IMG/VR virus record: IMGVR_UViG_3300022937_000195
Span: 1-20,079 of that record
From: a virus
Reading direction: 5' to 3' (one strand)
Length of the DNA stretch: 20,079 nucleotides
Both the position numbers and the translations under genes were made by a program. The notes below the pieces were generated by a model, which worked only from the letters and a program-made list of their open reading frames with translations, had not been told where the DNA came from and did not search any database. The first letter of the stretch is position 1. Each line of letters opens with the position of its first letter. Shown here piece after piece: positions 782-19,257 of this stretch.

Positions 782-796
782 AATTTGAGTTTCCTT

Positions 797-804
797 TATT
801 TAAG
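797..804 (-). promoter_or_regulatory. Weak late-promoter-like core CTTAAATA at a fibre stop codon
   Basis: Read on the minus strand the site is CTTAAATA, six of eight bases matching the T4 late promoter TATAAATA. Its TAA is also the stop codon (800-802) of the preceding fibre gene. It lies 16 bases before the ATG of the 87-residue gene and could drive that gene plus gp17. The match is imperfect, and the support comes from the same arrangement recurring at other junctions. Confidence 0.4.
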
Positions 805-2221: not shown

Positions 2222-2222
2222 A

Positions 2223-2639
2223 TTACTTTCCCTTTAACATCTTTTGTAGTTCAGCAGTGCTTCCAACAAATAATGCATTTGTTACGTTCTGAGGAGCAGA
2301 ATTAGGAACTTCTTTGAGTTTCTTCATCTTTGCTTGCAAATCACCCAATTTCTCCGTGACTTCTGCCACTTGTTTAATCAAGTTCCCAGCAACCTCATAG
2401 GTTCTTGGGTGTTCTGATTCTCTTGCAAGGTCTAGAATACCATCAATGGCATCCTGTCCTCTTTCGATAAGATTATAAAAGTTCTCTCGTTGATATTTAT
2501 AATCGTTATCTATATCTTCTTCATTTAGTTTTGTTTCTGGAACAAGAACAGGTTTTGGTGGAGTAACATCCTTTACTGCCAAAACCTCTGGTTCTGCTAT
2601 TCCTAAAACATTATCTAAAATGTCAGTCTGATTGCTCAT
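2223..2639 (-). CDS. terS: Small terminase subunit gp16
   Basis: This is the regulatory small subunit of the T4-type terminase, which forms rings, recognises the DNA to be packaged and stimulates gp17. The 138-residue protein has the gp16 pattern: an acidic N-terminal region ending in DNDYKYQREN (44-53), a central coiled-coil hairpin (about 53-108) containing SEHPRTYEVAGNLIKQ (75-90; T4 has ADSPRHMEVFATLMGQ), and a C-terminal NVTNALFVGSTAELQKML (118-135; T4 has NATVFMGSPTEL). It is a little shorter than T4 gp16 because the C-terminal tail is trimmed. The start overlaps the preceding 76-residue gene by 17 bases. A fibre gene separates it from gp17, unlike the adjacent arrangement in T4. Confidence 0.92.
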   Translation of the reverse strand: MSNQTDILDNVLGIAEPEVLAVKDVTPPKPVLVPETKLNEEDIDNDYKYQRENFYNLIERGQDAIDGILDLARESEHPRTYEVAGNLIKQVAEVTEKLGDLQAKMKKLKEVPNSAPQNVTNALFVGSTAELQKMLKGK

Positions 2640-2853
2640 CTACCGCTTCTTCTTGTTTTGGAAGTTCGGCTTTCAAATTGTCAAACATCAATTGTCTAGA
2701 TGCTTTGAGCATCTCAATTTCAAAAGTTTTGTCTGCTTCCAACTGATTTGACTTTTGAATATTATTAATTAGATTAATACAATTCTGGCTCAAATCTTCA
2801 ATTGCATACTCTACGTCATCAATTGTAATCATTTGTTTCTTTTCTTCAGTCAT
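2623..2853 (-). CDS. Small acidic coiled-coil protein upstream of gp16 (76 aa)
   Basis: A 76-residue protein with MITIDDVEYAIEDLSQN at residues 8-24, then a heptad-like helix (about 25-62) and an acidic tail (EEAVDEQSD). It resembles, from memory, short DUF6447-type proteins found beside structural genes in marine T4-like phages. The assignment was not checked against a database, and the function is unknown. The C-terminal 17 bases overlap the gp16 start, so translation of the two is probably coupled. Upstream, a GGAG ribosome site precedes the ATG and a CCTAAATA late-type core lies 36 bases away. It follows the S74 fibre gene, so it may be a fibre partner rather than part of the packaging machinery. 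Confidence 0.8.
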   Translation of the reverse strand: MTEEKKQMITIDDVEYAIEDLSQNCINLINNIQKSNQLEADKTFEIEMLKASRQLMFDNLKAELPKQEEAVDEQSD

Positions 2854-2888
2854 AATATTTTCACTCCGTTTATTATATGTCTGTCTTT

Positions 2889-2896
2889 TATTTAGG
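2889..2896 (-). promoter_or_regulatory. Late-promoter-like core CCTAAATA
   Basis: On the minus strand the 50-base spacer after the S74 fibre holds CCTAAATA, which shares TAAATA with the T4 late core TATAAATA. It lies 36 bases before the start of the small gene upstream of gp16 and could drive that gene, gp16 and the C1q-tipped fibre. Unlike most other sites here, it does not overlap a stop codon. Confidence 0.45.
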
Positions 2897-2903
2897 TAGA
2901 CTA

Positions 2904-4415: not shown

Positions 4416-4445
4416 GCGTTTCTTCCTTTAGGAATTCTTTTCTAT

Positions 4446-4453
4446 TATTTATT
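4446..4453 (-). promoter_or_regulatory. Late-promoter-like core AATAAATA overlapping the gp15 stop codon
   Basis: Minus-strand AATAAATA differs from the T4 late core at one base. The TAA of the gp15 stop (4449-4451) forms its centre. It lies 30 bases before the ATG of the S74 fibre and probably restarts late transcription after the neck block. Confidence 0.6.
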
Positions 4454-5270
4454 CATCTTGGTCAGTTACAGGATTATAAGTTTTCGCATCTTCAAAGAAA
4501 CTTGTTGTTTCATTAAATCCAAAGTTATCATCATCTGGATCAAATTCTTGTGCAGTTGCATTCGATGGATTCGGTGCGACTGTGTATCTTTGTTCCCTAG
4601 ATGGAGCATTAACTGGAGTATTTGCATACTGGTCAACTTGTACAGTACGAATAACATTTGTAGACGTTACTGGGCCGTACAAGTAATACTTTGCAGTAAA
4701 ACTTAGAGTATAAATGATACTCCTTCTACTTGTAAAGTCGCCTTCATAATCGTCCTCATAAGAGATACTATTCAGTACGATAGGAACATCACGAATGATA
4801 TCTAGTTCTGGAATCTCTCTCAAAGTTACTGTGTATTCTGGTTGAAAGTAAGGAAGGATTTGTTCTACAATTTGCAACGCATCATCTGAGTTCTTTGCAA
4901 GAATATACAACTCAAAGTCAACATTATATGGAACAGGCATAAAACCAGATTTTAATTGTGAGTTATCTGCACCATCTAGTACCTTCTTTGCCTTCATAAT
5001 TTTGTTTTGTTTTCTGGTTGCATCATATGTCAAACCAGAAATCTCAAACCCAATACGAGGAAGTGTAACCGCTACCTTTTTTGCAAGGTTAGGGTCTTCT
5101 GTCAATCTTGACAACCACTTTTGTTTTGGGCCATATGCAAGTGGAACTTTCATTGTCTGTGTGACATTTCCACTGCTATCTTTTTTAGTCAATTGAATTT
5201 GGTTAAAAAGTGTACCAAACGCAACTACGACATTTCTTGTCGATTCGTTATAAAAATAATTTCCAATCAT
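4449..5270 (-). CDS. gp15: Tail sheath stabilizer and completion protein gp15
   Basis: The T4 gp15 homologue caps the end of the finished tail as a hexameric ring, stabilises the sheath and provides the face that joins the head neck. The 273 residues align by eye along the whole T4 protein. MIGNYFYNESTR at the start corresponds to MFGYFYNSSFR, LPRIGFEISGLTYDA (70-84) to LPRINLHLVDFSYNA, and QIVEQILPYFQP (133-144) is identical. SRRSIIYTLSFT (181-192) and YLYGPV follow, matching SRRRIEWSLTFE and WMYPPV. The start lies two bases after the gp14 stop, in a compact gp13-membrane protein-gp14-gp15 operon. Length is normal and no key segment is missing. Confidence 0.95.
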   Translation of the reverse strand: MIGNYFYNESTRNVVVAFGTLFNQIQLTKKDSSGNVTQTMKVPLAYGPKQKWLSRLTEDPNLAKKVAVTLPRIGFEISGLTYDATRKQNKIMKAKKVLDGADNSQLKSGFMPVPYNVDFELYILAKNSDDALQIVEQILPYFQPEYTVTLREIPELDIIRDVPIVLNSISYEDDYEGDFTSRRSIIYTLSFTAKYYLYGPVTSTNVIRTVQVDQYANTPVNAPSREQRYTVAPNPSNATAQEFDPDDDNFGFNETTSFFEDAKTYNPVTDQDE

Positions 5271-5272
5271 AG

Positions 5273-6031
5273 TTAATTAACCCCAGCATCACCGAATGGA
5301 TTAGATTCAGTAAAGTCTAATATATTATCGTCTGCAAGTTCAAAGTCATCATTCTGTGAATTCTCATCAATAGTTGCGACATTATAAGTTTCTAGTATTA
5401 TATAGGACGCCGCAGCATTCTCTACTGAGTTCTCCAATATAAGAGAACCAGAACCAGTTGCAGTTTCCAAAGTGAGTTGATGTGACAACATATCCAAAGA
5501 GTTGTCAGTTTCAATAACATCAATCTCTGCAATACCTGTGTCAATGGCTTCTGAACCATACTCAAAGGTTTTGCATTTTAGTTTATATGTAGGTAGATTG
5601 TGGACTTGAAGAAATGGATCTTCATCTTCCACAAAAGTAATCTCAAAGAGTTTGCCACCCTTTGGGAAATAAACTAAATCGCCTTCATTTGGCCTTGAAG
5701 ATACAATCAAGTTGTTGTCGATAGAAATAAACTGTTCCCATCTTCTTCTTGCAACAACAAAGGTTGCATCATCTTGTATATCCAAACCAAACTTAGACAT
5801 GAGTTCTTTCTCGCCCTCATATCCATCAATATTTTCCATATACATTTCGATAAGGTATGCATCCTCAAATGAAGAACCGATATCTTCACCAAAGATATTA
5901 TCAGTACCAGCTAACTTACGAGGAATATAATAAACATCTTGCCCATAAATGCGAAGTTGTTCAATAATCAAATCCTCATAGAGCGCCTGCTCTGGTTTTG
6001 TTCCTGTATCGAAATATACATTAGTTGGCAT
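5273..6031 (-). CDS. gp14: Neck protein gp14
   Basis: The T4 gp14 homologue works with gp13 to form the neck ring that seals the portal after packaging and joins head to tail. The 252-residue protein carries the family's N-terminal motifs: VYYIPRK (33-39; T4 has FYYLPRE), DNIFGED (44-50; T4 has DKIFGED) and AYLIEMYMENIDGYEG (58-73; T4 has AYKIAVYLNTFEGYN), then KFGLDIQD (80-87). The C-terminal region from about 165 is acidic and low in complexity. The start overlaps the 94-residue membrane protein by 11 bases, and the stop is two bases from the gp15 start. The gene order matches T4 except for that extra membrane protein. Confidence 0.95.
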   Translation of the reverse strand: MPTNVYFDTGTKPEQALYEDLIIEQLRIYGQDVYYIPRKLAGTDNIFGEDIGSSFEDAYLIEMYMENIDGYEGEKELMSKFGLDIQDDATFVVARRRWEQFISIDNNLIVSSRPNEGDLVYFPKGGKLFEITFVEDEDPFLQVHNLPTYKLKCKTFEYGSEAIDTGIAEIDVIETDNSLDMLSHQLTLETATGSGSLILENSVENAAASYIILETYNVATIDENSQNDDFELADDNILDFTESNPFGDAGVN

Positions 6032-6305
6032 TTTGTAACCTTATCTCAAGTTCTTTTACTTTTAGTTCTAAGTTACGAACTCTTTTAATTGTGTCTTGAA
6101 CTTCTGGTGGTGGTTTGAAACCATTTATCCAATCATTATTCTTATCTACTTGCATATCCATCATTGTGTAGTTATGTTCTAAAAACGCAATTCTTTCTGT
6201 TAAACCAAAATAAGCCGTGACAGCAATAACTGTACCAATAATCAATCCTATTAAATTCTTTAATGGAATTGCAACTTGCGTATCTTCATTTAGTTTTGTT
6301 GGCAT
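6021..6305 (-). CDS. Single-pass membrane protein with coiled coil, between gp13 and gp14 (94 aa)
   Basis: Function unknown. Residues 16-34 (from LKNLIGLIIG through to AYFGL) form one clear hydrophobic transmembrane segment. The preceding stretch is short and polar. From about 40 to the end the chain is soluble and helical, with GFKPPPEVQ at 62-70 and a charged heptad coiled coil (72-92). I recall similar proteins in the same position in marine T4-like phages, with no counterpart at this place in T4. It starts three bases after the gp13 stop and overlaps gp14 by 11 bases, so it is made with the neck proteins. Options include a minor virion protein, an assembly factor at the inner membrane, or a lysis-related protein. 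The sequence does not decide between them. Confidence 0.85.
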   Translation of the reverse strand: MPTKLNEDTQVAIPLKNLIGLIIGTVIAVTAYFGLTERIAFLEHNYTMMDMQVDKNNDWINGFKPPPEVQDTIKRVRNLELKVKELEIRLQNAN

Positions 6306-6308
6306 AAC

Positions 6309-7124
6309 TTACCCTATCATATGCATAGGCGGCAGTTCGTATGCAAGTTGAATCTGTTCTTCCAACTTATCAATCTCTTCCTGTGCCTGTGTATAAATTT
6401 GATCACCGTTTAGTGCAACACCACCCAACATCTGAATACCTTGAAACTTAGAAAGGTTTGCACCCCATTGTTTCTTAATGAGTTGAGTTGCATACTTCTT
6501 CAAAAAGATATCATCCCAAACATCTGCATATGTTGTTGGATCAAGTTTGCGATAGCATTCAATAAGAATGTAATCGTTCTCAACAAAATCTGTCTGGAAA
6601 TCTGCATCCAAGTATAATCTGTTTTGATGTTGGTTGTGACGAATTGCTGTCTCACCAATAAGAATGTGATCTAGAAAATCTAGATGTTGCATTGTCATCT
6701 CATAGTGAATAACAGAAGTAGAACTAAAATCATACAAATCATTCAGTCTCAACTGATATCTAATATCAAACATATTCAGTGCGGCCTTATCTGTCAAAGG
6801 AAATACTTTAACGATAGACACCACCGAACTTGGAACTGGAATCCAGTTTTGTTGTTCATACCAAGTTGCAGTTGTTGAACCATCAACATCAGTTGCAACC
6901 GTTCCAGAATCATTACCTCTTGCACGAGTAATATCTGCCGCAGACAATTGATATTTTAGATACACCCTCTCAATACCATCGTAATGATATTGTGCGAAAT
7001 ATTGTAGAGCCTCATCAATTCTATCTTCAACTTGATCTGGATCAACATTAATTTCGATAACAGGTTTGCCTAAACTTCTTAAGCACCATTCTTTAAAATC
7101 TGTTCTTGTTGTTGGTATTGCCAT
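6309..7124 (-). CDS. gp13: Neck protein gp13
   Basis: The T4 gp13 homologue is the head-completion/neck protein that binds the portal with gp14 once DNA is inside. The 271-residue protein begins with RSLGKPVIEINVDPDQ (16-31; T4 has RRIGQPVININVTEDQ), followed by the helix EDRIDEALQYFAQYHYDG (33-50; T4 has NDRIDDAIQKFREYHMDG). ECYRKLDP near residue 188 and ALNGDQIYTQAQEEID near the C-terminus also match family positions. It is a little shorter than T4 gp13, mostly in loop regions. The stop is three bases before the small membrane-protein gene, and a 69-residue fibre-like gene lies six bases upstream. Confidence 0.95.
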   Translation of the reverse strand: MAIPTTRTDFKEWCLRSLGKPVIEINVDPDQVEDRIDEALQYFAQYHYDGIERVYLKYQLSAADITRARGNDSGTVATDVDGSTTATWYEQQNWIPVPSSVVSIVKVFPLTDKAALNMFDIRYQLRLNDLYDFSSTSVIHYEMTMQHLDFLDHILIGETAIRHNQHQNRLYLDADFQTDFVENDYILIECYRKLDPTTYADVWDDIFLKKYATQLIKKQWGANLSKFQGIQMLGGVALNGDQIYTQAQEEIDKLEEQIQLAYELPPMHMIG

Positions 7125-7130
7125 GTTTTC

Positions 7131-7340
7131 TTATCCTAATGCGACTGCTACTGCGATTGCGAAACCTTCTGAAGCACCAGCAGATGCGTTTGCAACTTCA
7201 ACTACTGTACCATCAGATTTTTTTGTATAAATCTTTTGGTCAGCAGAGTTGATTGCAACTTCTCCAACTTCCAAATCGCCTGAAGATGGAACTGAAGATG
7301 CAGTTTCAGAGCGTTTTGGTCTAATCGCAACAGTAGCCAT
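7131..7340 (-). CDS. Short Mtd-N-terminus-like protein (69 aa)
   Basis: A 69-residue protein built like the first domain of the neighbouring 658-residue fibre. It has an IRPKRSETASSVPSSG stretch (6-21), then DLEVGEVAINSADQKIYTK (22-40) and SDGTVVEVA. This is the pattern of the N-terminal beta-prism of major-tropism-determinant-type fibres (IKRSxxxxxxPxxLxxGELAxNxxxxKIYVGDxxG). Here it is followed only by a 20-residue Ala/Gly/Val tail, with no shaft or tip. It may be a minor structural cap, a fibre-attachment adaptor or the remnant of a longer fibre. Its ribosome site is AGGAG. The stop is six bases before gp13, so it is probably co-expressed with the neck genes. Confidence 0.8.
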   Translation of the reverse strand: MATVAIRPKRSETASSVPSSGDLEVGEVAINSADQKIYTKKSDGTVVEVANASAGASEGFAIAVAVALG

Positions 7341-10048: not shown

Positions 10049-11752
10049 TTAGTTTGATTCTAGAGCAGTGATACGAGCTTCTAATTCTTGAATTGTCTTT
10101 ACGAGTAGAGGAACAAGCTTGCTTTGGTCGATTCCTTGATAAACAGGGTTGCCATCATCATCTACTTCATCGTGTGTGCCTGTGATTGCTTCTGGAACAA
10201 CTGACTGCACCTCATGTGCTAAGAAGCCATCTACTGTTGTATCTGCATCTGCTATGAAGTTAAATCTTTTTGGTTGTAGTTGCTTGAGCCTTGTTGTAGC
10301 ATCTGTCATCTCAACCACGTTATCCTTTAGGCGATAATCTGATGAGGTGTTATATGATGTTGATGAGCCACTAGTGCTAATAGTACCTACGACACTATTA
10401 ATATTTTTAAAACATATATGGTGCATTGTAGAGGAACTATCTTTATTTGTTACAATAGCATAAGCATTAGCATCAGTAGAACTTGCATTAAAATAAGCAC
10501 AACCAATAGAGCCAACATTTAAATATGGGTTTGTACTTGAATTAAATCTGTATATTTTAAAAGAGCCTGAAGTATGATGATTTATATCACCATTTGATGT
10601 TATACGCATACGTTCTGCTCTAGAGCCACTATCCCTAGACACAAACACAAAATCTGATGCATTGTTACTGCTGTTCTGAACTCCACCAATGTACCATTCA
10701 CCATTAGATTCCGTAGTAAACGACATAATCGAGTTATTTAAAGCACCAGAGGTGCTATTCTTTAGACCAAGTATATTGTTAAATGCCGCAGACAACGGGT
10801 TATAATCCGTATCAGAATCATTTTGAACTTGAACAGGGGTGTTTGGATTATCAGTACCAATGCCCACTCTGCCGTTGCTGTCGATACGCATACGTTCAAC
10901 ATCACCAGTACCAAAAGTTAATTCTGGAGCTGCACCGCCGGTAGCACCAATTCTTGCCTGAGCTTCTGTTGACCTCATTCCAAAAACAATTTGTCCACCA
11001 ACAGTAATATTAGAATTAGCAGGATTTTCTAAATAAATTGTGGGGCCAATACCAACTTGACCATCTGCATCAGTAGCATCATAAGTTGTAGCATCAGATT
11101 TTTTTAAGTGTAAGAAACTAGATGGGTTGGTCTCGCCGAGGCCCAATTTGCCATCGGACAAAATACTCATACGCACACCGCCGCCAGTCAGCAATTCCAT
11201 TGCATTTGAACTATTTGCTCTAATTGCAAGACTCTCTGCGCCGCCAGTATCTTGCATCGCAAAATAAGAGGCGTTAGGCAAAACCAACTTATTTGTCATA
11301 CTGCTTACGCCAATGCCCACGTTGCCGGCATTGTCGATACGCACCTTTTCAGCTACTGTTCCATTATTATTAGTTTTAAAAGCAAGGCCGCCGAAGTTAT
11401 TTCCAATATTGATACCCTCTACAGTACCGTGAATTTCTTCTGCTTTGAAACGCAAAACAGCAACTCCACCTGTACCTCCCTCAACATCAATATCACCTTT
11501 AACATGAAGTTCTTTAGAAGGCGAAGTTGTGCCGATGCCCACTCTATTATTTGTACTGTCTAGATAAAGTGTTCCAGAATCATAGTTTAGGTTATTGGCA
11601 AGTTTAGCACCAGTGACAGCACCATCAGTGAGTTCAGATACAGTTACAGAGTTCGCAGCAAGATCGTCAGCAACAATTACATCTACACCAATCTTGGCAG
11701 ATGTGATAGCGTCATCTTGAATACCGTCTGTTTTAATTCTTGAAATTGGCAT
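10049..11752 (-). CDS. Tail fibre with C-terminal S74 self-cleaving chaperone domain (567 aa)
   Basis: Paralogue of the fibre at 2904-4415. The N-terminus holds ten-residue repeats (DDAITSAKIG and TDGAVTGAKL types, residues 12-51) and the shared DSGTLYLDSTNNRV segment (58-71). Four or more fibre repeats of the VGIGTTSPxxxLHV type follow, each preceded by an R[IV]D..G[NR]VGIG turn. The last 98 residues form the S74 chaperone: SSDYRLKDN starts at 470 with Ser471 and Lys476 as the predicted dyad, then GFLAHEVQ, GIDQSKLVPLLVK and a C-terminal coiled coil. The released trimer would lack these ~97 residues. Its S74 domain is close to that of the 2904 gene, while the middle region is quite different. 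Host-surface binding is inferred. A late core at 11775 lies just upstream. Confidence 0.9.
   Translation of the reverse strand: MPISRIKTDGIQDDAITSAKIGVDVIVADDLAANSVTVSELTDGAVTGAKLANNLNYDSGTLYLDSTNNRVGIGTTSPSKELHVKGDIDVEGGTGGVAVLRFKAEEIHGTVEGINIGNNFGGLAFKTNNNGTVAEKVRIDNAGNVGIGVSSMTNKLVLPNASYFAMQDTGGAESLAIRANSSNAMELLTGGGVRMSILSDGKLGLGETNPSSFLHLKKSDATTYDATDADGQVGIGPTIYLENPANSNITVGGQIVFGMRSTEAQARIGATGGAAPELTFGTGDVERMRIDSNGRVGIGTDNPNTPVQVQNDSDTDYNPLSAAFNNILGLKNSTSGALNNSIMSFTTESNGEWYIGGVQNSSNNASDFVFVSRDSGSRAERMRITSNGDINHHTSGSFKIYRFNSSTNPYLNVGSIGCAYFNASSTDANAYAIVTNKDSSSTMHHICFKNINSVVGTISTSGSSTSYNTSSDYRLKDNVVEMTDATTRLKQLQPKRFNFIADADTTVDGFLAHEVQSVVPEAITGTHDEVDDDGNPVYQGIDQSKLVPLLVKTIQELEARITALESN
11541..11581. 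repeat. 41-bp block identical to 1950-1990
   Basis: Partner of the block at 1950-1990, in the N-terminal stalk of the 567-residue S74 fibre. It marks the join between the ADGAVTxxKL repeat region and the VGIGTTSP repeat region in both genes. Confidence 0.93.
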
Positions 11753-11774: not shown

Positions 11775-11782
11775 TATTTATT
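11775..11782 (-). promoter_or_regulatory. Late-promoter-like core AATAAATA overlapping a stop codon
   Basis: Minus-strand AATAAATA, one base off TATAAATA. The TAA of the 65-residue gene's stop (11778-11780) lies inside it. It is 22 bases before the ATG of the 567-residue S74 fibre and is the probable promoter for that gene. Confidence 0.6.
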
Positions 11783-11975
11783 CTGCATCTGGTAATGGGT
11801 CTGCGTCTGCAATTGTTAAGTCACCAGATTCTACTTGTCTGAGTATTTCTGCGTAGTGTCTGTTAGCAGGGTCTAGTGGTACAGACATTGGGATATCATC
11901 TATTATTGCTAAAATACCAGAATTAACTCCTTCAAACTGTAAATACTTAGCTGATAAAATGTTTAAATTTTCCAT
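11778..11975 (-). CDS. Small fibre-partner protein (65 aa), paralogue of 14611-14781
   Basis: A 65-residue acidic protein with no membrane segment. It matches the 56-residue protein at 14611-14781 in layout: an N-terminal NILSAKYLQ, a central acidic strand (IIDDIPMSVPLDPANRHY) and a conserved end EILRQVESGDLTIADAD. Both follow carbohydrate-binding-like fibres that share the same final codons. The ATG here directly abuts the fibre's TAA, and the ribosome site CGGAG lies inside the fibre's last codons. This placement is typical of tail-fibre assembly or chaperone proteins, which is the favoured reading, but no family was confirmed. A small structural subunit is the alternative. Confidence 0.8.
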   Translation of the reverse strand: MENLNILSAKYLQFEGVNSGILAIIDDIPMSVPLDPANRHYAEILRQVESGDLTIADADPLPDAE

Positions 11976-13133
11976 TTATAACTCCGAATCTGCTGTCCAC
12001 CCAGCAATATGAGACTTATCTGTTGTAAATCCACTAGCTTTGTACGCCAAAAAAATACCTTGCTTAGATGAACTATTAACTGTAACACCTGTTATATCAG
12101 GGCTACCAATCTGATGTACACCTCCTGCCGTTCCGGCATTATTATAAAGAACACAAGTAGGATTAGTTCTCATTTCTACTGGAAACCTGTTTCCACCCCA
12201 TGCTTCACTAGCGTTGTAAGAATAAAACCACATTGGACTAGATGTAGCATTAGCAATAGACGTACTTTGCTGATAATACCTCTTACAAAGATGGAGTTCA
12301 GCAGCATATGTGCTATGCTCGAATGTGGTAGCCTCAGTGCCTTCTTCAAGTTGTAATTGTGCAAATTGAATTTTATCAGCGGTGTTATGACAATTACCAA
12401 ATGCCCAATATATCTGCAATCCTTTGTCAAAGTTTGTCAAAGAAGTAGCAGAAGTTCTTGTAACCGTAAAATAATACCATGTATCTACTGAAGTAAGTGT
12501 GAGCGTTCCATTGTTAGCAGCTGTTCCATCACCAGAAATTGTTGCAGAAGTAAACGCAGCACCATGTGTAGTGTATCCAGCAAAGTTATCTGTTGCAGTA
12601 GGACAAATGATGTTAGTTGAAATTGCTTGGTTTACACTGCCACTTCTTTTAATATAACCACTGATAGTAAATGAATTTTTTGCTCTAATACCAGCAAGAG
12701 ATGAGGACTCTACTCTTTGTCCAAAGTAACCAGCACCATTTCCACTGTTTGCACTTGTTGGGCCTCTTACCTCTGCAAATTTATTGTTAGCACCGCTGGC
12801 AGTTGGGCCTCCATCAAATACATGATGTGTAGCACCAGTAGGAGTTTGATCAAAATGCCCGAACCACCTGTCTGGAGAAAGATATTGCCAAATACCACCA
12901 GTATACGTTACTGATGTGCCTCTTTGAGCTATTCTGAAATTGCCATTGATAAAGACATTTCTTCTACCAGTTTCAACACCAAGTTTACTTCCAGTAACAG
13001 CATCATCAGCAATTTTTGCAGAAGAAACAGAACCGTCAGAAATCTTTGCCTGTGTAACAGAACCATCAGCAATGTCAGTGTTTACAACTGTATTGTCTGG
13101 TATTGCTCTTGAATTTAGTTTAATGAGTGCCAT
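11976..13133 (-). CDS. Tail fibre with carbohydrate-binding-like module (385 aa)
   Basis: Residues 18-50 are three ten-residue repeats (IADGSVTQAK, ISDGSVSSAK, IADDAVTGSK). Then comes NVFINGNFRIAQRGTS (59-74) and PDRW, the opening found in many phage and bacterial tail proteins with a carbohydrate-binding-type jelly roll (NGxFxxxQRG...DRW). The jelly roll runs to about residue 262 and closes with AQLQLEEGTEATTFEHSTY (258-276) and ELHLCKRYY (279-287). A ~100-residue beta tip follows. The same frame of motifs is in the fibre at 14785-15804, so the two are paralogues. It probably binds a host surface glycan, by inference. It is followed without a gap by a 65-residue partner gene. Confidence 0.87.
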   Translation of the reverse strand: MALIKLNSRAIPDNTVVNTDIADGSVTQAKISDGSVSSAKIADDAVTGSKLGVETGRRNVFINGNFRIAQRGTSVTYTGGIWQYLSPDRWFGHFDQTPTGATHHVFDGGPTASGANNKFAEVRGPTSANSGNGAGYFGQRVESSSLAGIRAKNSFTISGYIKRSGSVNQAISTNIICPTATDNFAGYTTHGAAFTSATISGDGTAANNGTLTLTSVDTWYYFTVTRTSATSLTNFDKGLQIYWAFGNCHNTADKIQFAQLQLEEGTEATTFEHSTYAAELHLCKRYYQQSTSIANATSSPMWFYSYNASEAWGGNRFPVEMRTNPTCVLYNNAGTAGGVHQIGSPDITGVTVNSSSKQGIFLAYKASGFTTDKSHIAGWTADSEL

Positions 13134-13154
13134 TCTGTTCTTTTCCTATAATCT

Positions 13155-13162
13155 TATTTATT
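13155..13162 (-). promoter_or_regulatory. Late-promoter-like core AATAAATA overlapping a stop codon
   Basis: Minus-strand AATAAATA formed around the TAA stop (13158-13160) of the 83-residue gene. It lies 21 bases before the ATG of the 385-residue fibre and is one base off the T4 late core. Confidence 0.6.
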
Positions 13163-13409
13163 CTGCCGCAATGAGCTCATCATACTTTGCAACTGCGTCT
13201 GCATATGTTACAGTAAATGCAGAAACATCAGATGAAGTGATTGCACAATCGTTATCATCCGTTCCAGTGATTTCCATGTAACACGCATTGTATTCTTCTT
13301 CTGTAAGTCTATCATTGTGAGGCATACTCATCATAAACATTCCATCTGAATGCAGTGCTTGTACAGCAGTTAAAAAAGTAATTTCTGGGGTTCTTGTTGG
13401 TAATGACAT
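13158..13409 (-). CDS. Small protein after the 388-residue fibre, unknown function (83 aa)
   Basis: Not recognised. The 83-residue acidic protein has a basic/proline start (MSLPTRTPEIT), a Met-rich patch (DGMFMMSMPHNDRLT, residues 22-36), EEEYNACYMEITG, and an alpha-helical C-terminus (VTYADAVAKYDELIAAE). No signal peptide or membrane helix is visible. It lies four bases after the 388-residue fibre gene, the position occupied in neighbouring cassettes by small fibre-partner genes. A fibre-specific assembly factor is plausible, but this rests on position alone. The stop codon TAA is part of a late promoter core for the next fibre. Confidence 0.78.
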   Translation of the reverse strand: MSLPTRTPEITFLTAVQALHSDGMFMMSMPHNDRLTEEEYNACYMEITGTDDNDCAITSSDVSAFTVTYADAVAKYDELIAAE

Positions 13410-13413
13410 AATA

Positions 13414-14580
13414 TTATCCTATTCTATACCATGCATGATAATTGCGTCCATTACTATCTGATTGAACACTTGAACTTGTAGAGTTATTATCAGAGAACAT
13501 TTGATGATGAATATCTTGGTTATCAGCAGATGTGGTTACAATCCATGTTTGATGAATTTGAATGTTAAAAAGTTCAGCAGTACCACCACCTCTGTTCTCA
13601 AGATTCATTCTATACGTTGAATAATTATATTTGTCGTTTATAACAGCAGATGTGGTGTTGTTGTACAATCTTGATAAAATCATTCCATGCACACCCCACA
13701 TTCTAATTCTCATTGTGGCCTCAAGTCGATAGTCGCCCGCCTTTGGAAGAACCCAACGATAATATGTGTTATTTGGTGTACCCCATGAGTTGTAAGGAAC
13801 ATTACTATCACCAATAGAATCTGACCCCAAAGCGTTATATGCAGTTCCACTAGTTCCAGTAAATGCAGTTGCATCAATAATACCATCATGGTCTAGATTT
13901 ATAGAAGTTCCACCTGCTGTTCCAGCATCATTCAAAATTCTCCAATGTGCTTTATCGCCAGACATGAACCAGTTCATGGTTCTTCTATCGGCAGTCATGT
14001 CGGTGTTTGTTATAGATAATTCTGCACCGTTGGCATTATTACCATATACGACAAGTTTTCTATTTGGTGTTAATGTACCAATACCTAATGTTGGTGTTGC
14101 CCCACCAATGAATTTTAAGTCATCCGAAACATTAAAAGTTCCATTAACATCTAAGTTTCCAGCAACATCAATATTCGTATCTAGTTTTGCAGAAGTCACT
14201 GCACCACTAGCAAGTTCTGTTGTATCAACAGCCCCAGCAGCAATCTTTGCAGTTGTTACAGCATCATTTGCCAACTGACTTGTATTAACAGAACCAGCAC
14301 TAGGTACACCGATATCCAGTGTATCACCAAGTGCAATGATAAAGTCAATAACGTCAGCACTTGTCAATGCAGAGTCAAAGATAATCTGTGAACCACTGAC
14401 TGTGAATGAATCTTGAGGAGCCTGAATAACACCATTAAGTGAAACCAACAGGTGATTAGCACTTTGAGGATAGTATGCACCACTATCAAGTGTCAAGTTA
14501 TAGGTAGCAGTCGCAGAAGTTGTGATTGCATCTAACTTTGAATATGCACCAGCCTGTGGTTGTTTTCCGATAAATGGCAT
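13414..14580 (-). CDS. Tail fibre, MPFIGK-type N-terminus with jelly-roll-like tip (388 aa)
   Basis: Residues 1-85 form the module also found at the start of the 356-residue fibre (18187-19257). It begins MPFIGKQPQAG, then LLVSLNGVIQAPQDSFTVSG and a IIFDSAL strand. Ten-residue repeats (NDAVTTAKIA, AGAVDTTELA, SGAVTSAKLD) fill about 104-133. DTNIDVAGNLDVNG (134-147) and one LGIGTLTPNRKLVV repeat follow. From about 255 to the end a beta-rich domain, with TYYRWVLPKAGDYRLEA and a long final strand region, resembles a C1q-like or related jelly-roll tip. Binding to a host surface is inferred. The late-type core ACTAAATA lies 28 bases upstream of the ATG. A small 83-residue gene follows. Confidence 0.87.
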   Translation of the reverse strand: MPFIGKQPQAGAYSKLDAITTSATATYNLTLDSGAYYPQSANHLLVSLNGVIQAPQDSFTVSGSQIIFDSALTSADVIDFIIALGDTLDIGVPSAGSVNTSQLANDAVTTAKIAAGAVDTTELASGAVTSAKLDTNIDVAGNLDVNGTFNVSDDLKFIGGATPTLGIGTLTPNRKLVVYGNNANGAELSITNTDMTADRRTMNWFMSGDKAHWRILNDAGTAGGTSINLDHDGIIDATAFTGTSGTAYNALGSDSIGDSNVPYNSWGTPNNTYYRWVLPKAGDYRLEATMRIRMWGVHGMILSRLYNNTTSAVINDKYNYSTYRMNLENRGGGTAELFNIQIHQTWIVTTSADNQDIHHQMFSDNNSTSSSVQSDSNGRNYHAWYRIG

Positions 14581-14607
14581 ATTATTGTTTCCTAATCTCT
14601 TTCATAC

Positions 14608-14615
14608 TATTTAGT
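14608..14615 (-). promoter_or_regulatory. Weak late-promoter-like core ACTAAATA at a stop codon
   Basis: Minus-strand ACTAAATA keeps the TAAATA half of the late core and contains the TAA stop (14611-14613) of the 56-residue gene. It is 27 bases before the ATG of the 388-residue fibre. Two mismatches make it weaker than the AATAAATA sites, but the placement is the same. Confidence 0.45.
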
Positions 14616-14781
14616 CTGCTTCTGCAATAGTTAGTGTGCCTGCTTCTACTTGGCGCATGATTTCGTCATATTCGACATTCCCCACAACACAAGGAATTGC
14701 ATATTGTTTGCCTTCAATTGTTGCGATGATACTTATATTTCCTTCACTATATTGTGCAGATGTAATATTCATATTTTTCAT
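14611..14781 (-). CDS. Small fibre-partner protein (56 aa), paralogue of 11778-11975
   Basis: Found by reading the spacer after the fibre at 14785. ATG at 14781 opens 56 codons to TAA at 14611. The protein starts MKNMNITSAQYSEGN and ends EIMRQVEAGTLTIAEAD, matching the 65-residue protein at 11778 (NILSAKY ... EILRQVESGDLTIADAD). The ribosome site GGAG lies in the last codons of the preceding fibre, and the ATG is three bases after its stop. The fibre ends with GAGTTATAA, as the paired fibre at 11976 does. Two matching fibre/partner pairs make it very likely to be a real gene. It is probably a fibre assembly or attachment partner; no biochemical role was recognised. Confidence 0.88.
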   Translation of the reverse strand: MKNMNITSAQYSEGNISIIATIEGKQYAIPCVVGNVEYDEIMRQVEAGTLTIAEAD

Positions 14782-14784
14782 TTT

Positions 14785-15804
14785 TTATAACTCCGCCTTT
14801 GCTTCAAAGGGATGTGTAGAAAAATCAGTGTTCGTTCCACCCACACCCCAAATCTCGCCAGTAGAACCACCAGAAAACCCACTTAATTTGAAGTGTCCAC
14901 CATTTGCATTCATTGATGTGCTTGTTAGTGTTGGTGTAGCATCTCTATCTCCAACACCCCATTCATAAAGTCTAATAGTTCCTCCAGTAGGCAATCCAAT
15001 AGTTGGAGCAGTCCTCTTTTCAACTTTGAACTGTCCGTTTACAACAAGTCCAGAACCAGATTCAAATCTTGACCACCAACCTTGTCCAAACTTTTCATAA
15101 TACCTCTGACAGAGCGAAAGCTCTTCTCCGTATGAACGGTGTTCAAATGGAGTAGCAACCGAGCCAATCTCTAATTTCATTTGTGCAATATCAATATCAA
15201 CATTTGATGCAGGCAAACTTCTAATAAAAGCAATATAAAGATAACTACTTGTTCCTATTGTCTTACCAGAAATACTTGGAAGGACAATATTAAAAGTAAA
15301 TTTTTGCCATGAAGTGGTTAATGAATATGATTGTGCTGATGGAACAACTTGAGAACTACCACCACTTCCAAAATTCTGTCCTAGTTCTATTGTAGAACTG
15401 TGAGCAGTAGATGCCTTACCCCAAAAGGATAATGTTACGGTTTGTCCAGCACCAGTTCTCACATCTTCAATTCTATGATGAACAACTTTATTTGATGATG
15501 TAGAACCAGCAGTAAATCGAAAGTAGTAAGTTGGTTCGCCAGGAACATCTGTTTGTCCAGCAGTAAATGATTGTCGAGTTACATTATCACCAGTAGTTCC
15601 ACCACCAGCGACAACATACATCCTATCAGCAGTGTAAACATTATTGACATCACTGAATGATGTGCCTCTTTGCCAGACATTAAATCCGCCATTGATAATC
15701 AGATTTTTTCCAGCCATATTGGATGACTGTGGAGTAAATCCGTTAATGGTTGTAGTTAAACCAGAAGAAGAATCTGTAATTGTATCTACTTTTAATGTAC
15801 TCAT
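14785..15804 (-). CDS. Tail fibre with carbohydrate-binding-like module (339 aa)
   Basis: Start chosen at 15804. The ATG there overlaps the preceding gene's TGA as ATGA, and the protein then begins MSTLKVDTITDSSSG, a familiar start of phage tail proteins. An ATG six codons further upstream (15822) would create a 22-base overlap and is less likely. NLIINGGFNVWQRGTSF (34-50) and ADRMYV (59-64) open a carbohydrate-binding-type jelly roll. It closes with AQMKLEIGSVATPFEHRSY (207-225) and ELSLCQRYYEKFG (228-240). A ~100-residue beta tip follows. The sister gene is 11976-13133: same central module, different N-terminus and tip. A glycan-binding role is inferred. A 56-residue partner gene follows three bases later. 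Confidence 0.88.
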   Translation of the reverse strand: MSTLKVDTITDSSSGLTTTINGFTPQSSNMAGKNLIINGGFNVWQRGTSFSDVNNVYTADRMYVVAGGGTTGDNVTRQSFTAGQTDVPGEPTYYFRFTAGSTSSNKVVHHRIEDVRTGAGQTVTLSFWGKASTAHSSTIELGQNFGSGGSSQVVPSAQSYSLTTSWQKFTFNIVLPSISGKTIGTSSYLYIAFIRSLPASNVDIDIAQMKLEIGSVATPFEHRSYGEELSLCQRYYEKFGQGWWSRFESGSGLVVNGQFKVEKRTAPTIGLPTGGTIRLYEWGVGDRDATPTLTSTSMNANGGHFKLSGFSGGSTGEIWGVGGTNTDFSTHPFEAKAEL

Positions 15805-16118
15805 TCTGGTTTCTCCGGCCATACCACATCATCCAGTGATGTATATGTGTCTGTAATATCTCTTAGTGCCTGTCTGTATGTTTTCCATGCAGCAGGAATG
15901 TTTGTTCCTAGTTCCTTGTGCATAGTGACAACCCAATCTGTTTCTACGAGTTTGGCATTACGAATCATTCTTACTTCTTGAAGATTTAATTCTATCATAA
16001 CTGCATCATCATCATATGAAACTACATTATCATCCTTATCGTAAGGAACACCATCAATAACTTTAACAGCAGATGGATTCAATTTCATAATTGCAAAATC
16101 TTTACTACCTAGTCTCAT
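15801..16118 (-). CDS. Tail-assembly-chaperone-like protein (105 aa), paralogue of 16770-17027
   Basis: The C-terminal 55 residues have the pattern RNxxLxxTDWxxx...WxxYRQALRDIT (from about 53 to 89), then DTYTSLDDVVWPEKP. This is the layout of phage tail-assembly-chaperone-like proteins (Phage_tail_APC type) that sit behind tail-fibre genes. The N-terminal half (FAIMKLNPSAVKV, VPYDKDDNVVSYDDD) differs from that of its paralogue, and may fit this copy to its own fibre. Start and stop both overlap neighbours by ATGA: the start with the 207-residue fibre and the stop with the 339-residue fibre. The gene is therefore translationally coupled on both sides. A role in folding or attaching the preceding fibre is inferred from family and position. 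Confidence 0.87.
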   Translation of the reverse strand: MRLGSKDFAIMKLNPSAVKVIDGVPYDKDDNVVSYDDDAVMIELNLQEVRMIRNAKLVETDWVVTMHKELGTNIPAAWKTYRQALRDITDTYTSLDDVVWPEKPE

Positions 16119-16738
16119 TGTTTGATCTCCATCAATGTCATGTCATTATTATAATTATATCCACAACCTAGTTGTCCAGAACCAGACTGTAATGTAACCA
16201 CCAAAGTAAAAGTAATTGCACTTGTTGTATTATAACTAGAGAAAAGTTTCTGTCCACCATAATGCATTCTTGCGCCAGTAGTGTAAACTGAGTTAGGATA
16301 ACCAATCGCATCGGCAAGATAGTTACTTCCTAATGTAGCAGTTCCACTAGCACCACCAGCGATACTGTAATTATATTGGGCTCTCCAATATGCACCAGCA
16401 GCGTTATCCATATGATAAGCGGAATTTGTAATCATTAAAATTTTAGAACTTGCATATATTGGAGTGATTGTTGCAGTTTGAAGTGTTAGACTACCAGTGG
16501 ATATAGAAGCTGGGGCGCCATTAGTATGAACTGTTTGAACTACAGAACCAGCTGGTAACTCATCTCTAACTGCATTAGTAGCAAGTATTGCTGATGTAAC
16601 AGTTCCACTATCACCTGTTGTCACAACATTTCCAGTAACATCTGGAATGGTCAAAGTGCGATCAGTATTCGTGTTTGGAGCAACAATGTTTATTGTTCCA
16701 GTTCCACTCGCATTTGGTGTTATCGCAATTTTACTCAT
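16115..16738 (-). CDS. Short fibre-like protein (207 aa), paralogue of 17024-17614
   Basis: Residues 1-60 are a shaft-like start: ITPNASGTGTINIVAPNTN, then RTLTIPDVTGNVVTTGDSGTV, a fibre element also widespread in other phages. The rest is one beta-rich tip, with QTVHTNGAPASISTGS, TITPIYASSKILMI (around 91-104), YSIAGGASG and a closing LMEIKQ. The tip shares its order of elements with the 196-residue protein at 17024-17614 (VVNSASGTNYNTTA, VTITPVRTGSKFKV, YSIAGGT, LTITEIAQ). It is much shorter than the other fibres, so it may cap another protein or be a small side fibre. It is coupled to the chaperone-like gene by an ATGA overlap. Confidence 0.85.
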   Translation of the reverse strand: MSKIAITPNASGTGTINIVAPNTNTDRTLTIPDVTGNVVTTGDSGTVTSAILATNAVRDELPAGSVVQTVHTNGAPASISTGSLTLQTATITPIYASSKILMITNSAYHMDNAAGAYWRAQYNYSIAGGASGTATLGSNYLADAIGYPNSVYTTGARMHYGGQKLFSSYNTTSAITFTLVVTLQSGSGQLGCGYNYNNDMTLMEIKQ

Positions 16739-16763
16739 CTACTTTTCCTGTTTCTCATATTCT

Positions 16764-16771
16764 TATTTATT
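16764..16771 (-). promoter_or_regulatory. Late-promoter-like core AATAAATA overlapping a stop codon
   Basis: Minus-strand AATAAATA shares its TAA with the stop (16770-16772) of the first chaperone-like gene. It lies 25 bases before the ATG of the 207-residue fibre and separates the two related fibre/chaperone units. Confidence 0.6.
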
Positions 16772-17027
16772 ACGGTTTAGTAGGCCATACAACATCATCC
16801 AATGAAGAATATGTGTCTGTAATATCTCTGAGAGATTGTCTGTATGTTGCCCATGATGTTTTTTGTGAATCTGTCAAAGGACTATCTGCACCTTGTGTCC
16901 AATCTGTTTCTATCAACAAATGATTTCTCATTGCACGAAGGTCTGCCATGTTCTTTTGTGTAACTGCGGCATCACCAGTAACAGATGAAACTGTTCCATC
17001 AGAATTAAAATATACGACTTCACTCAT
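16770..17027 (-). CDS. Tail-assembly-chaperone-like protein (85 aa)
   Basis: Close relative of the 105-residue protein at 15801-16118. Residues 30-70 read LRAMRNHLLIETDWTQGADS, then PLTDSQKTSWATYRQSLRDIT, the usual core of phage tail-assembly-chaperone-like proteins, and the end is DTYSSLDDVVWPTKP. The N-terminal part (VVYFNSDGTVSSVTGD) is shorter and different. The start overlaps the 196-residue fibre as ATGA, so the two are coupled. Its likely job is to help the preceding fibre fold or assemble, inferred from family and position. The two chaperones share a run of 21 identical bases at 15843-15863 and 16809-16829, in the conserved C-terminal coding region. Confidence 0.88.
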   Translation of the reverse strand: MSEVVYFNSDGTVSSVTGDAAVTQKNMADLRAMRNHLLIETDWTQGADSPLTDSQKTSWATYRQSLRDITDTYSSLDDVVWPTKP

Positions 17028-17614
17028 TGTGCTATCTCCGTGATTGTTAGACCACTACCACCACCAACTCTATTCCATGCATATTCACCACCAGTACAAT
17101 ATTGTCCATAACCATAAATTGAGAATACAATTGATTGTCCTAAAGTGTAAGACAATGCACCAGTAAGACCACTAACCACATGGTTTACATATGTATTACT
17201 ACCACCGTAATGTCCAGTATCAATACCAGCAGCGGTAACAGTACCACCAGCAATAGAGTATTTTACTAACGAATAAATTGCACCAACACCAGTAGTGTTC
17301 GCAAAACCAACTGAAGACACCTTTCCATCAACTTTAAATTTACTACCAGTTCTTACTGGTGTTATTGTAACACTATAGTTGGTAAGTAGTGCGTGTCCAG
17401 TTGCAGCGCCACCAGCATCAGCAGTTGTATTGTAGTTTGTTCCACTTGCACTATTGACTACTTGAATTGCAGTGCCAGATGGCAAGTCAGAACTGGCCAA
17501 ACCATAAGTAACTGTCTTGCCACTCAAGTCTAGAGTAGATGCCAAATCAGCAGTCTGAACTACTCCGTCTTGGATTAAACTTACACCAGTTGTTCCGTCT
17601 ATTGTTACAGCCAT
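17024..17614 (-). CDS. Short fibre-like protein (196 aa)
   Basis: Opens with VTIDGTTGVSLIQDGVVQTADL (read in two parts: VTIDGTTGVSLIQDG, then VVQTADL) and DLSGKTVTYGLASSDLPSG, a typical phage shaft-to-tip start. A beta tip follows with VTITPVRTGSKFKVDGKVSS (about 83-102), then YSLVKYSIAGG and a LTITEIAQ end. It is the sister of the 207-residue protein at 16115-16738. The start shares a base with the preceding gene's TAA (TAATG), and the end overlaps the 85-residue chaperone by ATGA, so the small units are chained by translational coupling. A receptor-binding role is likely by analogy. No enzymatic motif is seen. Confidence 0.86.
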   Translation of the reverse strand: MAVTIDGTTGVSLIQDGVVQTADLASTLDLSGKTVTYGLASSDLPSGTAIQVVNSASGTNYNTTADAGGAATGHALLTNYSVTITPVRTGSKFKVDGKVSSVGFANTTGVGAIYSLVKYSIAGGTVTAAGIDTGHYGGSNTYVNHVVSGLTGALSYTLGQSIVFSIYGYGQYCTGGEYAWNRVGGGSGLTITEIAQ

Positions 17615-17817
17615 TATACTACCACCAATCTTGCACCAGAGGAAACTGTGAGGGTGACACCACTATTCACTGTGATAGGCCCAGCAGTTACGCCGTTCTT
17701 ATCAGCAGCAAGAGTATAGTCTACTGTCATAGTCTGATCATTGATAAAGAAAACAGCATCAGAACCGCCTCCGTCAATATTTTCTATAACTTGTGCCTGA
17801 ACTTTCGATAGTGGCAT
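17614..17817 (-). CDS. Small beta-rich fibre-associated protein (67 aa)
   Basis: A 67-residue protein starting MPLSKVQAQVIENIDGGGSD, then FFINDQTMTVDYTLAADKNG and ITVNSGVTLTVSSGARLVVV. The last ~25 residues form the 'xITVxSGxTLTVxxGAxLVV' ladder that also appears at the ends of phage shaft proteins, where it makes a beta-helical or beta-prism turn. Here it stands alone, without a tip. It overlaps the next fibre gene by one base (TAATG). The ribosome site AAAGGGG is strong and a late core lies 19 bases upstream. It may be a small structural connector for the following 196-residue fibre; this is inference. Confidence 0.82.
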   Translation of the reverse strand: MPLSKVQAQVIENIDGGGSDAVFFINDQTMTVDYTLAADKNGVTAGPITVNSGVTLTVSSGARLVVV

Positions 17818-17836
17818 AATTATCCCCTTTTAGATA

Positions 17837-17844
17837 TATTTATT
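17837..17844 (-). promoter_or_regulatory. Late-promoter-like core AATAAATA overlapping a stop codon
   Basis: Minus-strand AATAAATA, one base off TATAAATA, built on the TAA stop (17840-17842) of the 92-residue gene. It is 19 bases before the ATG of the 67-residue protein and would begin the fibre array transcript. Confidence 0.6.
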
Positions 17845-18118
17845 CTTCACCGTCAACAGCTGCGTTCTGAGCAGCAACGTGTGCTGCGTATGCAGTTTTC
17901 ACTGCGTCAGTATGAAACTGTGCAACCATTGCCTGAACGTCTGCACTTTCAGCGGCAACTGCGTCAGCAGATGCATCTGGTGCTACAACGTGTCTGTGAA
18001 ATGAACGAGAAATTTCTACACCATCACGCTCGATGATTGTAGCAGTTCTTACTTGAATATGCTTGAACTCGCCTACGACTTCAATCTTATCCTGTTCTGT
18101 TCTTTCTGTAAGTGCCAT
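17840..18118 (-). CDS. Small acidic protein after the 356-residue fibre (92 aa)
   Basis: Not firmly identified. The first 50 residues contain a beta-type stretch (IEVVGEFKHIQVRTATIIER, then DGVEISRSFHRHVV). The C-terminal ~45 residues are Ala-rich and helical (SADAVAAESADVQAMVAQFH, then TDAVKTAYAAHVAAQN), ending DGEE. From memory, similar proteins occur next to tail-fibre genes in marine phages and are annotated only as hypothetical. It follows the 356-residue fibre after a 67-base spacer, the longest in the window. The position parallels the partner genes of the other cassettes, so a fibre-assembly role is possible. AGGAG is its ribosome site. Confidence 0.82.
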   Translation of the reverse strand: MALTERTEQDKIEVVGEFKHIQVRTATIIERDGVEISRSFHRHVVAPDASADAVAAESADVQAMVAQFHTDAVKTAYAAHVAAQNAAVDGEE

Positions 18119-18141
18119 TTTATTTCTCCTATTTTAGTATC

Positions 18142-18183
18142 GTGACTTGACTTGTCACCTGTCCGACCCTATATCCAATAGGG
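18142..18183 (-). other. Two small inverted repeats in the spacer after the 356-residue fibre
   Basis: The 67-base spacer holds two perfect stems. Bases 18142-18158 pair GTGAC with GTCAC over a 7-base loop, and 18167-18183 pair CCCTAT with ATAGGG over a 5-base loop. Neither is followed by a run of T on the minus strand, so a standard intrinsic terminator is doubtful. They might be RNA-processing or pausing elements, or chance. Confidence 0.4.
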
Positions 18184-18186
18184 TTA

Positions 18187-19257
18187 TTACGATGTTTTAT
18201 AAACCAACATTGCCGTAAAAAACGACATTTGAGTAGTAACGTCTTGACCGCCCTTAAATACTCTGGGTGGATTAAAACCGTGAATATTTCCAACTTGGCT
18301 GCTGGGGTTTGAACCCCAAATCCCAATACCCATATTGCCTTGTGCTTGCGACACTGCAAACGGCAAACCACCAATAACTAGAAACGAACCCGCTGTGCCA
18401 CTTGTTCCACCATCAACTCTTATTTGACAAGTTACTGTGTTGCCAATCTTAGTATACTGTCCATTTGATAAACTGAATGTCGAATCATTAGTGCTAGTGT
18501 GATATAGGGTCGGCGTAAAAGTGCCTTCTTCATAATCGTCAAGGGCGTTAGCAGCTGTATAACCACTATTACCAAAGACAACTGTTCCGCCAGTTCCCAC
18601 ACACACATGGATACCAGCGTTATTTGCATTTTGAATATTTCCACGAAGAGTACCAGTTCCAGAACCAGAGTAGAAACCCAACATTCCACCTAAGTTACCA
18701 GAGTTAGTATCGTTAATTTGCATACCATTTGTAGATGCAGAACTAAAATTAACACCTAGTGGAGTTCCACCAGCACCAAGAGTTCTACCACCTAAATTTA
18801 TTGAGTTTGCAGTTGAATTACCAACTACAGCAAGTGTTGAATCAAGTGTAGTTGCACCAGTAACATCCAGTGTTCCTGCCACATCAATATTCGTATCTAG
18901 TTTTGCACTAGTGACAGCATTGTTTACTAGTTTTGCACTAGTGACAGCATTGTTTACTAGTTTTGCAGTTCCAATAGAAAGGTCTGCTGGAACGACTGAA
19001 CTTTCGATTGTTCCAGCAATATGAAGAACATAGAAATTAACACCAGTTGCTGGTGCAACACTCATCGTCAAAGTTGTTCCATTAACTGTATAAGCGTCTG
19101 TAGGTTCTTGGCGAACATTACCTACATAGACAGCAATATCAGTTACAGTTGCAACTTGTTTTGATAACGTAAATACTGTGGTTGTACCGTCTGCTGTAAA
19201 ATCATCCTTGACGATTGTAGCAAAACCAGCGGTTGGATTTTTTCCAATAAATGGCAT
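18187..19257 (-). CDS. Tail fibre, MPFIGK-type N-terminus with EEGTFTP tip (356 aa)
   Basis: Residues 1-80 form a beta module (DDFTADGTTTVFTLSKQV, then IAVYVGNVRQEPTDAYTVNG). A similar module opens the 388-residue fibre and fills most of the partial gene at 19620. Ten-residue repeats VNNAVTSAKL fill about 100-120, where two copies are identical even in DNA. DTNIDVAGTLDVTG (121-134) and a short shaft follow. The C-terminal domain (240-356) starts DDYEEGTFTPTLYHT and has YTKIGNTVTCQIRV and SFLVIGGLPFAV, a tip module I recall from many marine phage fibres. No S74 domain is present. It probably recognises a host surface, by inference. A 92-residue candidate partner follows. Confidence 0.88.
   Translation of the reverse strand: MPFIGKNPTAGFATIVKDDFTADGTTTVFTLSKQVATVTDIAVYVGNVRQEPTDAYTVNGTTLTMSVAPATGVNFYVLHIAGTIESSVVPADLSIGTAKLVNNAVTSAKLVNNAVTSAKLDTNIDVAGTLDVTGATTLDSTLAVVGNSTANSINLGGRTLGAGGTPLGVNFSSASTNGMQINDTNSGNLGGMLGFYSGSGTGTLRGNIQNANNAGIHVCVGTGGTVVFGNSGYTAANALDDYEEGTFTPTLYHTSTNDSTFSLSNGQYTKIGNTVTCQIRVDGGTSGTAGSFLVIGGLPFAVSQAQGNMGIGIWGSNPSSQVGNIHGFNPPRVFKGGQDVTTQMSFFTAMLVYKTS
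18901..18960. repeat. Perfect tandem 30-bp duplication inside a fibre gene
   Basis: Bases 18901-18930 and 18931-18960 are identical with no gap. They add exactly ten residues (two copies of LVNNAVTSAK, residues 100-119) to the repeat stalk of the 356-residue fibre. The next seven bases start a third, decayed copy. Identity in DNA as well as protein points to a recent duplication. Confidence 0.97.

Follow-up and report, generated by a model that had tools for sequence, protein, structure and literature searches.

The DNA described here is a viral window of 20,079 nucleotides, which is the full length of the stretch analysed (positions 1 to 20,079 of IMG/VR virus record IMGVR_UViG_3300022937_000195). 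It comes from a T4-like marine myophage, a phage of bacteria, and the nearest isolate is the OM43 phage Melnitz. Between positions 11,778 and 19,257 lie six fibre-like genes; the small gene behind each of them is here called its partner. Taken as a whole, this is probably an array of tip-matched, jointly replaced fibre/partner units in which the partner acts in fibre assembly, located within the host-recognition cluster of this Melnitz-like phage. The evidence consists of the matching of partner families to fibre tip classes, of natural replacements in near-identical phages, and of protein families and domain fusions.

The twelve genes were already noted in the preliminary description, and all of them are found on the minus strand. 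The six small genes are real: homologues of them sit behind fibres in more than 200 contigs. Their families are called KIEV (92 amino acids, aa), APC (85 and 105 aa, matching PF16778), NITS (56 and 65 aa) and P83 (83 aa). Fibre 1 (18187 to 19257, 356 aa) has a KIEV-class tip (tip profile 52 bits) and is a homologue of Melnitz-3 gene 175, while partner 1 (17840 to 18118, 92 aa, KIEV family, phrog_6228) is 78% identical to Melnitz-3 gene 176. Fibre 2 (17024 to 17614, 196 aa) has a weak EIA-class tip (24.5 bits), and is followed by partner 2 (16770 to 17027, 85 aa), a member of the tail assembly chaperone family PF16778 with an E-value of 1.9e-17. The EIA-class tip of fibre 3 (16115 to 16738, 207 aa) scores 73.6 bits, and partner 3 (15801 to 16118, 105 aa) is again PF16778 (E 1.2e-15). 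Fibre 4 (14785 to 15822, 345 aa) combines a CBM_4_9-like domain, for which the match (E 5e-4) is under the curated cut-off, with a NITS-class tip that ends in AEL (94 bits). Partner 4 (14611 to 14781, 56 aa) is of the NITS family. Fibre 5 (13414 to 14580, 388 aa) has a P83-class tip, and partner 5 (13158 to 13409, 83 aa) is a P83 domain alone. Finally, fibre 6 (11976 to 13133, 385 aa) carries a NITS-class tip (86 bits), and partner 6 (11778 to 11975, 65 aa, NITS family) has a predicted beta-beta-beta-alpha fold (pLDDT 89.6).

Several of these pairs are tightly joined, as was also noticed earlier. There are ATGA overlaps at 17024/16770 and 16115/15801, and the genes abut at 11976/11778. The remaining junctions have gaps of 3 nucleotides (nt; 14785/14611), 4 nt (13414/13158) and 68 nt (18187/17840). 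The reported paralogy of the partners also holds: the 85 and 105 aa proteins are about 48% identical (E 8e-26), and the 56 and 65 aa proteins 49% (E 4e-13). The fibres were said to be paralogous too. This is true for 14785 and 11976 (25% identity, E 8e-13), but 17024 and 16115 give no BLAST match at E<0.01 and have only a tip profile in common. Near their 3' ends the two PF16778 partners also have 73 bp of DNA in common (15817-15889 and 16783-16855, 86% identity), a possible site of recombination between units.

The alternation of fibre and partner is real for the six pairs, but it is not strict. A 67-aa gene (17614 to 17817, minus strand) sits between the first two units; no test marks it as a partner. 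It resembles part of Melnitz gene 193, and its position is kept in a close relative of the window, locus L173.

Four partner-based scans of viral contigs (IMG/VR) gave 242 loci. After removal of near-duplicates (90%), this left 243 pairs of a partner and its upstream gene. The upstream genes were clustered twice, once on their last 120 residues (the tip) and once on their first 70 (the N-terminus). Counts of these pairs are descriptive; even with near-duplicates removed, the pairs are not independent.

Similar tips turn out to have similar partners. One tip cluster holds 88 NITS partners, another 58 KIEV and 1 APC, and others 39, 8 and 5 APC; 3 glycine-rich tips have a partner family of their own, and 2 tips have P83. 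The partner family is the same in 2703 of 2712 tip-homologous pairs (99.7%), where the chance level is 0.328. Tips reach a normalised mutual information of 0.978 with partner family, N-termini 0.169. Genes with N-termini at least 60% identical and the same tip share the partner family in 142 of 142 pairs. If the tip differs, so does the partner in 18 of 40 pairs; the other 22 share a partner family across tip clusters. The preliminary description had proposed such a comparison of co-occurrence, and its outcome is that partner families do not combine freely with tips unrelated to one another.

Sampling by partner could inflate this match, which is why searches starting from the tip were made as well. 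Among tips in loci that had been fetched via another partner family, a NITS partner follows the NITS-class tip in 35 of 37 cases and a KIEV partner the KIEV-class tip in 18 of 24, but PF16778 follows the EIA-class tip in only 17 of 46. Overall, 18 of 81 KIEV-class tips have no adjacent KIEV partner. For isolates found by their tip, a NITS-like partner is next in 5 of 7 (HMO-2011, Venkman, S-SBP1 and SNW-1, plus S-T4 with a weak score of 11 bits). A KIEV partner is next in 5 of 6, and in the sixth it is nearby in the genome. Whole genomes were searched for 22 isolates, a non-random set in which many were picked through tip or partner. There, 13 of the 15 genomes that have a KIEV-class tip also carry the KIEV partner, against 0 of the 7 that lack this tip (Fisher p 0.0002); the NITS partner occurs in 8 of 11 with a NITS-class tip and in 0 of 11 without (Fisher p 0.001).

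Natural replacements show what is exchanged. Melnitz-2 and Melnitz-3 are near-identical over 37 kb apart from one stretch of 6 kb. In that stretch the tip of 175 with its partner 176, the pairs 177/178 and 181/182, and the tip of 183 have been replaced; the pair 179/180 has been kept at 98-99%. The first ~99 residues of gene 175 are conserved between the two phages, which means that the breakpoint is inside this fibre gene. The Melnitz paper describes nine genes of altered length in the 6-kb region and the same host range on its panel (PMC9004378). Glycine-rich tips occur at two places, in Melnitz-2 gene 175 and Melnitz-3 gene 181, and the same partner family follows both. These Melnitz tips (L005, 16027-17348; L006, 12718-14326) thus have their own partner family, one tested member of which gave no Pfam match.

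The relatives of the window add finer breakpoints. In L173, fibre 16115 keeps its N-terminus and has a changed tip, and its partner 15801 has a replaced N-terminal half and a kept PF16778 half. For 14785/14611, again the fibre N-terminus is kept, the tip and the N-terminal half of the partner are replaced, and the last part of the partner is kept. Fibre 13414 is identical over its first ~113 residues and then has a tip of another class; L173 ends before the partner. In L247 only the CBM-like part of fibre 14785 is replaced, and tip and partner are kept at 99.9%.

It had been suggested that fibre and partner are exchanged together. Joint replacement is indeed what Melnitz-2/-3 and L173 display, but the unit is smaller than was thought. 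Judging from the sequences compared, it is the C-terminal tip plus the partner and not the whole fibre plus the partner, and the fibre N-terminus usually stays.

What the partners do is suggested by their families. Genes 16770 and 15801 match the PF16778 (Phage_tail_APC) profile with 63.3 and 57.5 bits, above the curated cut-off of 26.6; the other four window partners have no match to it. The DUF4376 (PF14301) profile matches none of the small partners of the window. Two proteins that fibre function depends on end in a DUF4376 domain: V22 gp27 (PMC7289586) and the Campylobacter H-fibre chaperone (PMC7882524). In the Tfa proteins, a variable N-terminal domain binds the C-terminus of the fibre (PMC7882524).

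The smaller families are found fused to such domains elsewhere. P83 is fused ahead of PF16778 in Melnitz-3 gene 178 and in many contigs, and in Prochlorococcus phage P-SSP3 it has another C-terminal part and is located behind a P83-class tip. In Sulfurimonas phage SNW-1, a NITS domain is fused ahead of DUF4376 (E 2.5e-9); the fibre gene in front of it encodes a P2-type anchor (PF12571) and a NITS-class tip (21.9 bits). Because of these fusions, and because the N-domain of Tfa binds the fibre C-terminus, the NITS (56 and 65 aa) and P83 (83 aa) proteins of the window are most simply read as stand-alone tip-binding N-domains of two-domain chaperones. Membership in a known family supports a chaperone role for the two PF16778 partners; for the three NITS and P83 partners such a role seems plausible, and for KIEV it could go either way. 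Joining of fibre and partner in one reading frame was not seen among the partner loci surveyed.

Two earlier candidates were dropped. The 56/65-aa proteins were at one point thought to be XkdW-like, on the basis of a motif, and Pfam gave no support for this. V22 gp26/gp27 were considered as direct relatives of the NITS pair and did not match; only DUF4376 is common, with SNW-1. The N-domain of V22 gp27 and the tip of V22 gp26 differ from those of the NITS pair, which is what the tip-binding role predicts.

The partners might also be permanent tip subunits, caps or adhesins like gp38 of T2-type phages, which stay on the fibre and contact the receptor. In three of the six partners (14611, 11778 and 13158) the trimerising C-terminal domain of Tfa chaperones is indeed missing. 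TfaMu remains bound to its fibre, as cited in PMC7289586, and for Alteromonas phages the existence of 'caps' has been suggested (PMC10579305). However, the T-even gp38 adhesin is a glycine-rich tip protein that carries receptor specificity, and no glycine-rich stretches were seen in the six partner sequences. The fusion of the same partner domains with chaperone domains also speaks against permanent subunits, as does the absence of the Pam3 chaperone from virions (PMC9608196). All in all, permanent subunits appear improbable.

Several results weigh against matched units that act in assembly. Co-divergence of partner and tip inside families is weak, with Mantel r values of 0.14 for NITS, 0.08 for KIEV and 0.23 for APC. 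For KIEV and APC, the N-terminus of the fibre correlates with the partner as well as the tip does, or better, and within the APC class the N-domain subfamilies show no preference for tips over anchors. Half of the EIA-class tips (50 of 98) have no adjacent PF16778 partner. For KIEV, neither a relative nor a fusion was found.

Since co-divergence inside families is weak, the partner appears to be matched to a tip class and not to an individual tip. Synechococcus phage S-B05 (L255) has four KIEV-class tips and only one KIEV partner in its genome. In DSL-LC05 the partner is further downstream, and in S-B43 and MA01 there are tips but no partner. Either one partner may serve several fibres in trans, or partner and tip may be independent. 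The earlier suggestion that each fibre has its own factor is therefore not borne out, given the family-level match, the weak co-divergence, the unaccompanied EIA-class tips and S-B05. Puniceispirillum phage HMO-2011 (L251), a podophage, has a long series of small fibre genes with two PF16778 genes and one NITS pair.

Could the partners then simply be independent small genes that hitch-hike beside the tip in an exchanged segment, with no functional match? Block exchange creates linkage by itself, and weak co-divergence fits this as well. The KVT family, a widespread family of small proteins, fits it too. Its members stand behind tips of more than one class and even behind partner genes, hence behind several unrelated genes in the same arrays. 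The window has one member, an 87-aa gene (518 to 781, minus strand, 117 bits) behind the fibre gene 800, a pair outside the stretch covered by the preliminary description and not listed there. Yet this promiscuity cuts the other way too: adjacency in these arrays alone need not give a perfect match. In addition, the match spans podophages and myophages with unrelated anchors, the KIEV and NITS partners are missing from all tip-less genomes in the non-random isolate set above, and PF16778 and DUF4376 tie partners to chaperones. Hitch-hiking is thus very unlikely.

The KIEV partner has no assigned family. The predicted structure of 17840 has three strands plus helices (pLDDT 93.5). Foldseek searches of the PDB with AlphaFold models of the 65-aa (11778) and 92-aa (17840) partners gave no match below E 0.001, and Pfam and PDB profile searches matched no family for the 56/65-aa and 92-aa proteins. 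The array might also be mixed, with only the PF16778 partners being chaperones and KIEV having some other role, for example in regulation or decoration. The KIEV spacing of 45-68 nt in most cases fits this, as do its lack of a fusion, family or fold match and its absence beside some KIEV-class tips. But the tip-first searches placed KIEV next to or near its tip in the isolates. A mixed array is somewhat unlikely, though less so than the other two alternatives.

In the preferred explanation of matched units that act in assembly, each unit would consist of a conserved N-terminal anchor, an exchangeable C-terminal tip and a matched small partner, arranged in series. During assembly of the fibre trimer, each partner would most likely attach to tips of a single structural class, like the N-terminal domain of a Tfa chaperone. 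Partners 2 and 3 have the conserved PF16778 domain, partners 4, 5 and 6 would be a tip-binding domain alone, and partner 1 would belong to an unrelated family that behaves alike genetically. Recombination would take place in the conserved 5' DNA of the fibre and downstream of it, for partners 3 and 4 inside the conserved 3' DNA of the partner. Tip and tip-binding domain would then be replaced jointly, so that a new tip comes with a factor able to handle it. All fibres may be present on one virion.

In principle, this is known from model phages. In Tfa-type systems (TfaMu, V22 gp27, Campylobacter CJIE1 H-fibre; DUF4376, PF14301) the small gene is also directly behind the fibre, its chaperone is required for fibre function (PMC7289586, PMC7882524), and a variable N-domain binds the tip (PMC9608196). 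NITS is similar, given the SNW-1 fusion and the family-level match. Unlike Tfa, partners 4 and 6 are only 56-65 aa long and lack DUF4376, and there are several units in series. Partner 2 passes the Phage_tail_APC cut-off, as does partner 3, and is almost without an N-terminal domain. In Pam3 gp24/gp25 (PDB 7YPX), the N-domain, which binds the tip, is not conserved and the C-domain is (PMC9608196); the L173 breakpoint falls between such halves. However, the family profiles of the window have no sequence match to 7YPX, and Pam3 has one fibre where the window has many. Alteromonas phages A5 and V22 have a fibre and chaperone module that is common to distant phages (PMC10579305), much like the unit here. 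Theirs is one module, whereas here there are several units per genome and at least four partner families.

The array had been called little-described. This does not hold for Tfa-type chaperones, which are well described, but it does for the single-domain partners and the 92-aa family, which have no assigned function. New relative to the Tfa-type system are the single-domain partners and the series of units. Tentatively, these 56-92 aa proteins could be little-recognised single-domain fibre factors, specific for a tip fold and serving several fibres per cell; together with exchangeable tips they would give abundant marine phages a kit of combinable parts. As they have no trimerising domain of their own, their mechanism would be unlike that of TfaMu or Pam3 gp25.

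Fibre tips decide which bacteria can be infected. Marine phages of the kind described here are abundant, but their annotation is poor. With a rule that connects small genes to tip classes, many 'hypothetical proteins' could be named as candidate fibre factors, and it becomes clear which gene to co-express with a fibre. Melnitz-2 and Melnitz-3 are natural recombinants suited to testing the role of the partner. The single-domain partners would reveal how little of a Tfa chaperone suffices.

At the loci compared, the window and part of a 53-kb contig are 100% identical. On the minus strand, fibres and small genes run from 20078 to 7131, followed by a gp13-like gene (6309), a gp14-like gene (5273), the sheath stabiliser (4449), a fibre (2904), the terminase small subunit (2223), a fibre (800) and the terminase large subunit (1). 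Neck, sheath-stabiliser and terminase genes thus occupy 1-7124, and the 53-kb relative has a 2200-aa gene upstream. The order agrees with that of the Methylophilales (OM43) phage Melnitz. The fibre genes are flanked by the baseplate region on one side and by neck gene gp14 on the other. According to PMC7029224, the hypervariable host-recognition cluster of pelagimyophages sits between VrlC and gp14, and the clusters of pelagimyophages, cyanomyophages and Melnitz are at the same place as the array (PMC7029224, PMC9004378). The available sections of both papers report variable fibre genes and do not report a matched tip/partner unit.

The same array also contains a fibre that carries its own intramolecular chaperone at the C-terminus (10049 to 11752, minus strand). 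This is Peptidase_S74 (PF13884, E 2.3e-8), which was not found in the six fibres. Beyond the stretch studied there are fibre genes at 2904-4415, between sheath stabiliser and terminase small subunit, and at 800-2221 (minus strand), between the terminase genes; fibre-like genes occupy the corresponding positions in Melnitz. A 69-aa gene at 7131-7340 (minus strand) aligns with Melnitz fibre 187 (517 aa) over residues 1-67 of the latter and no further, and for this reason looks like the leftover N-terminus of a lost fibre.

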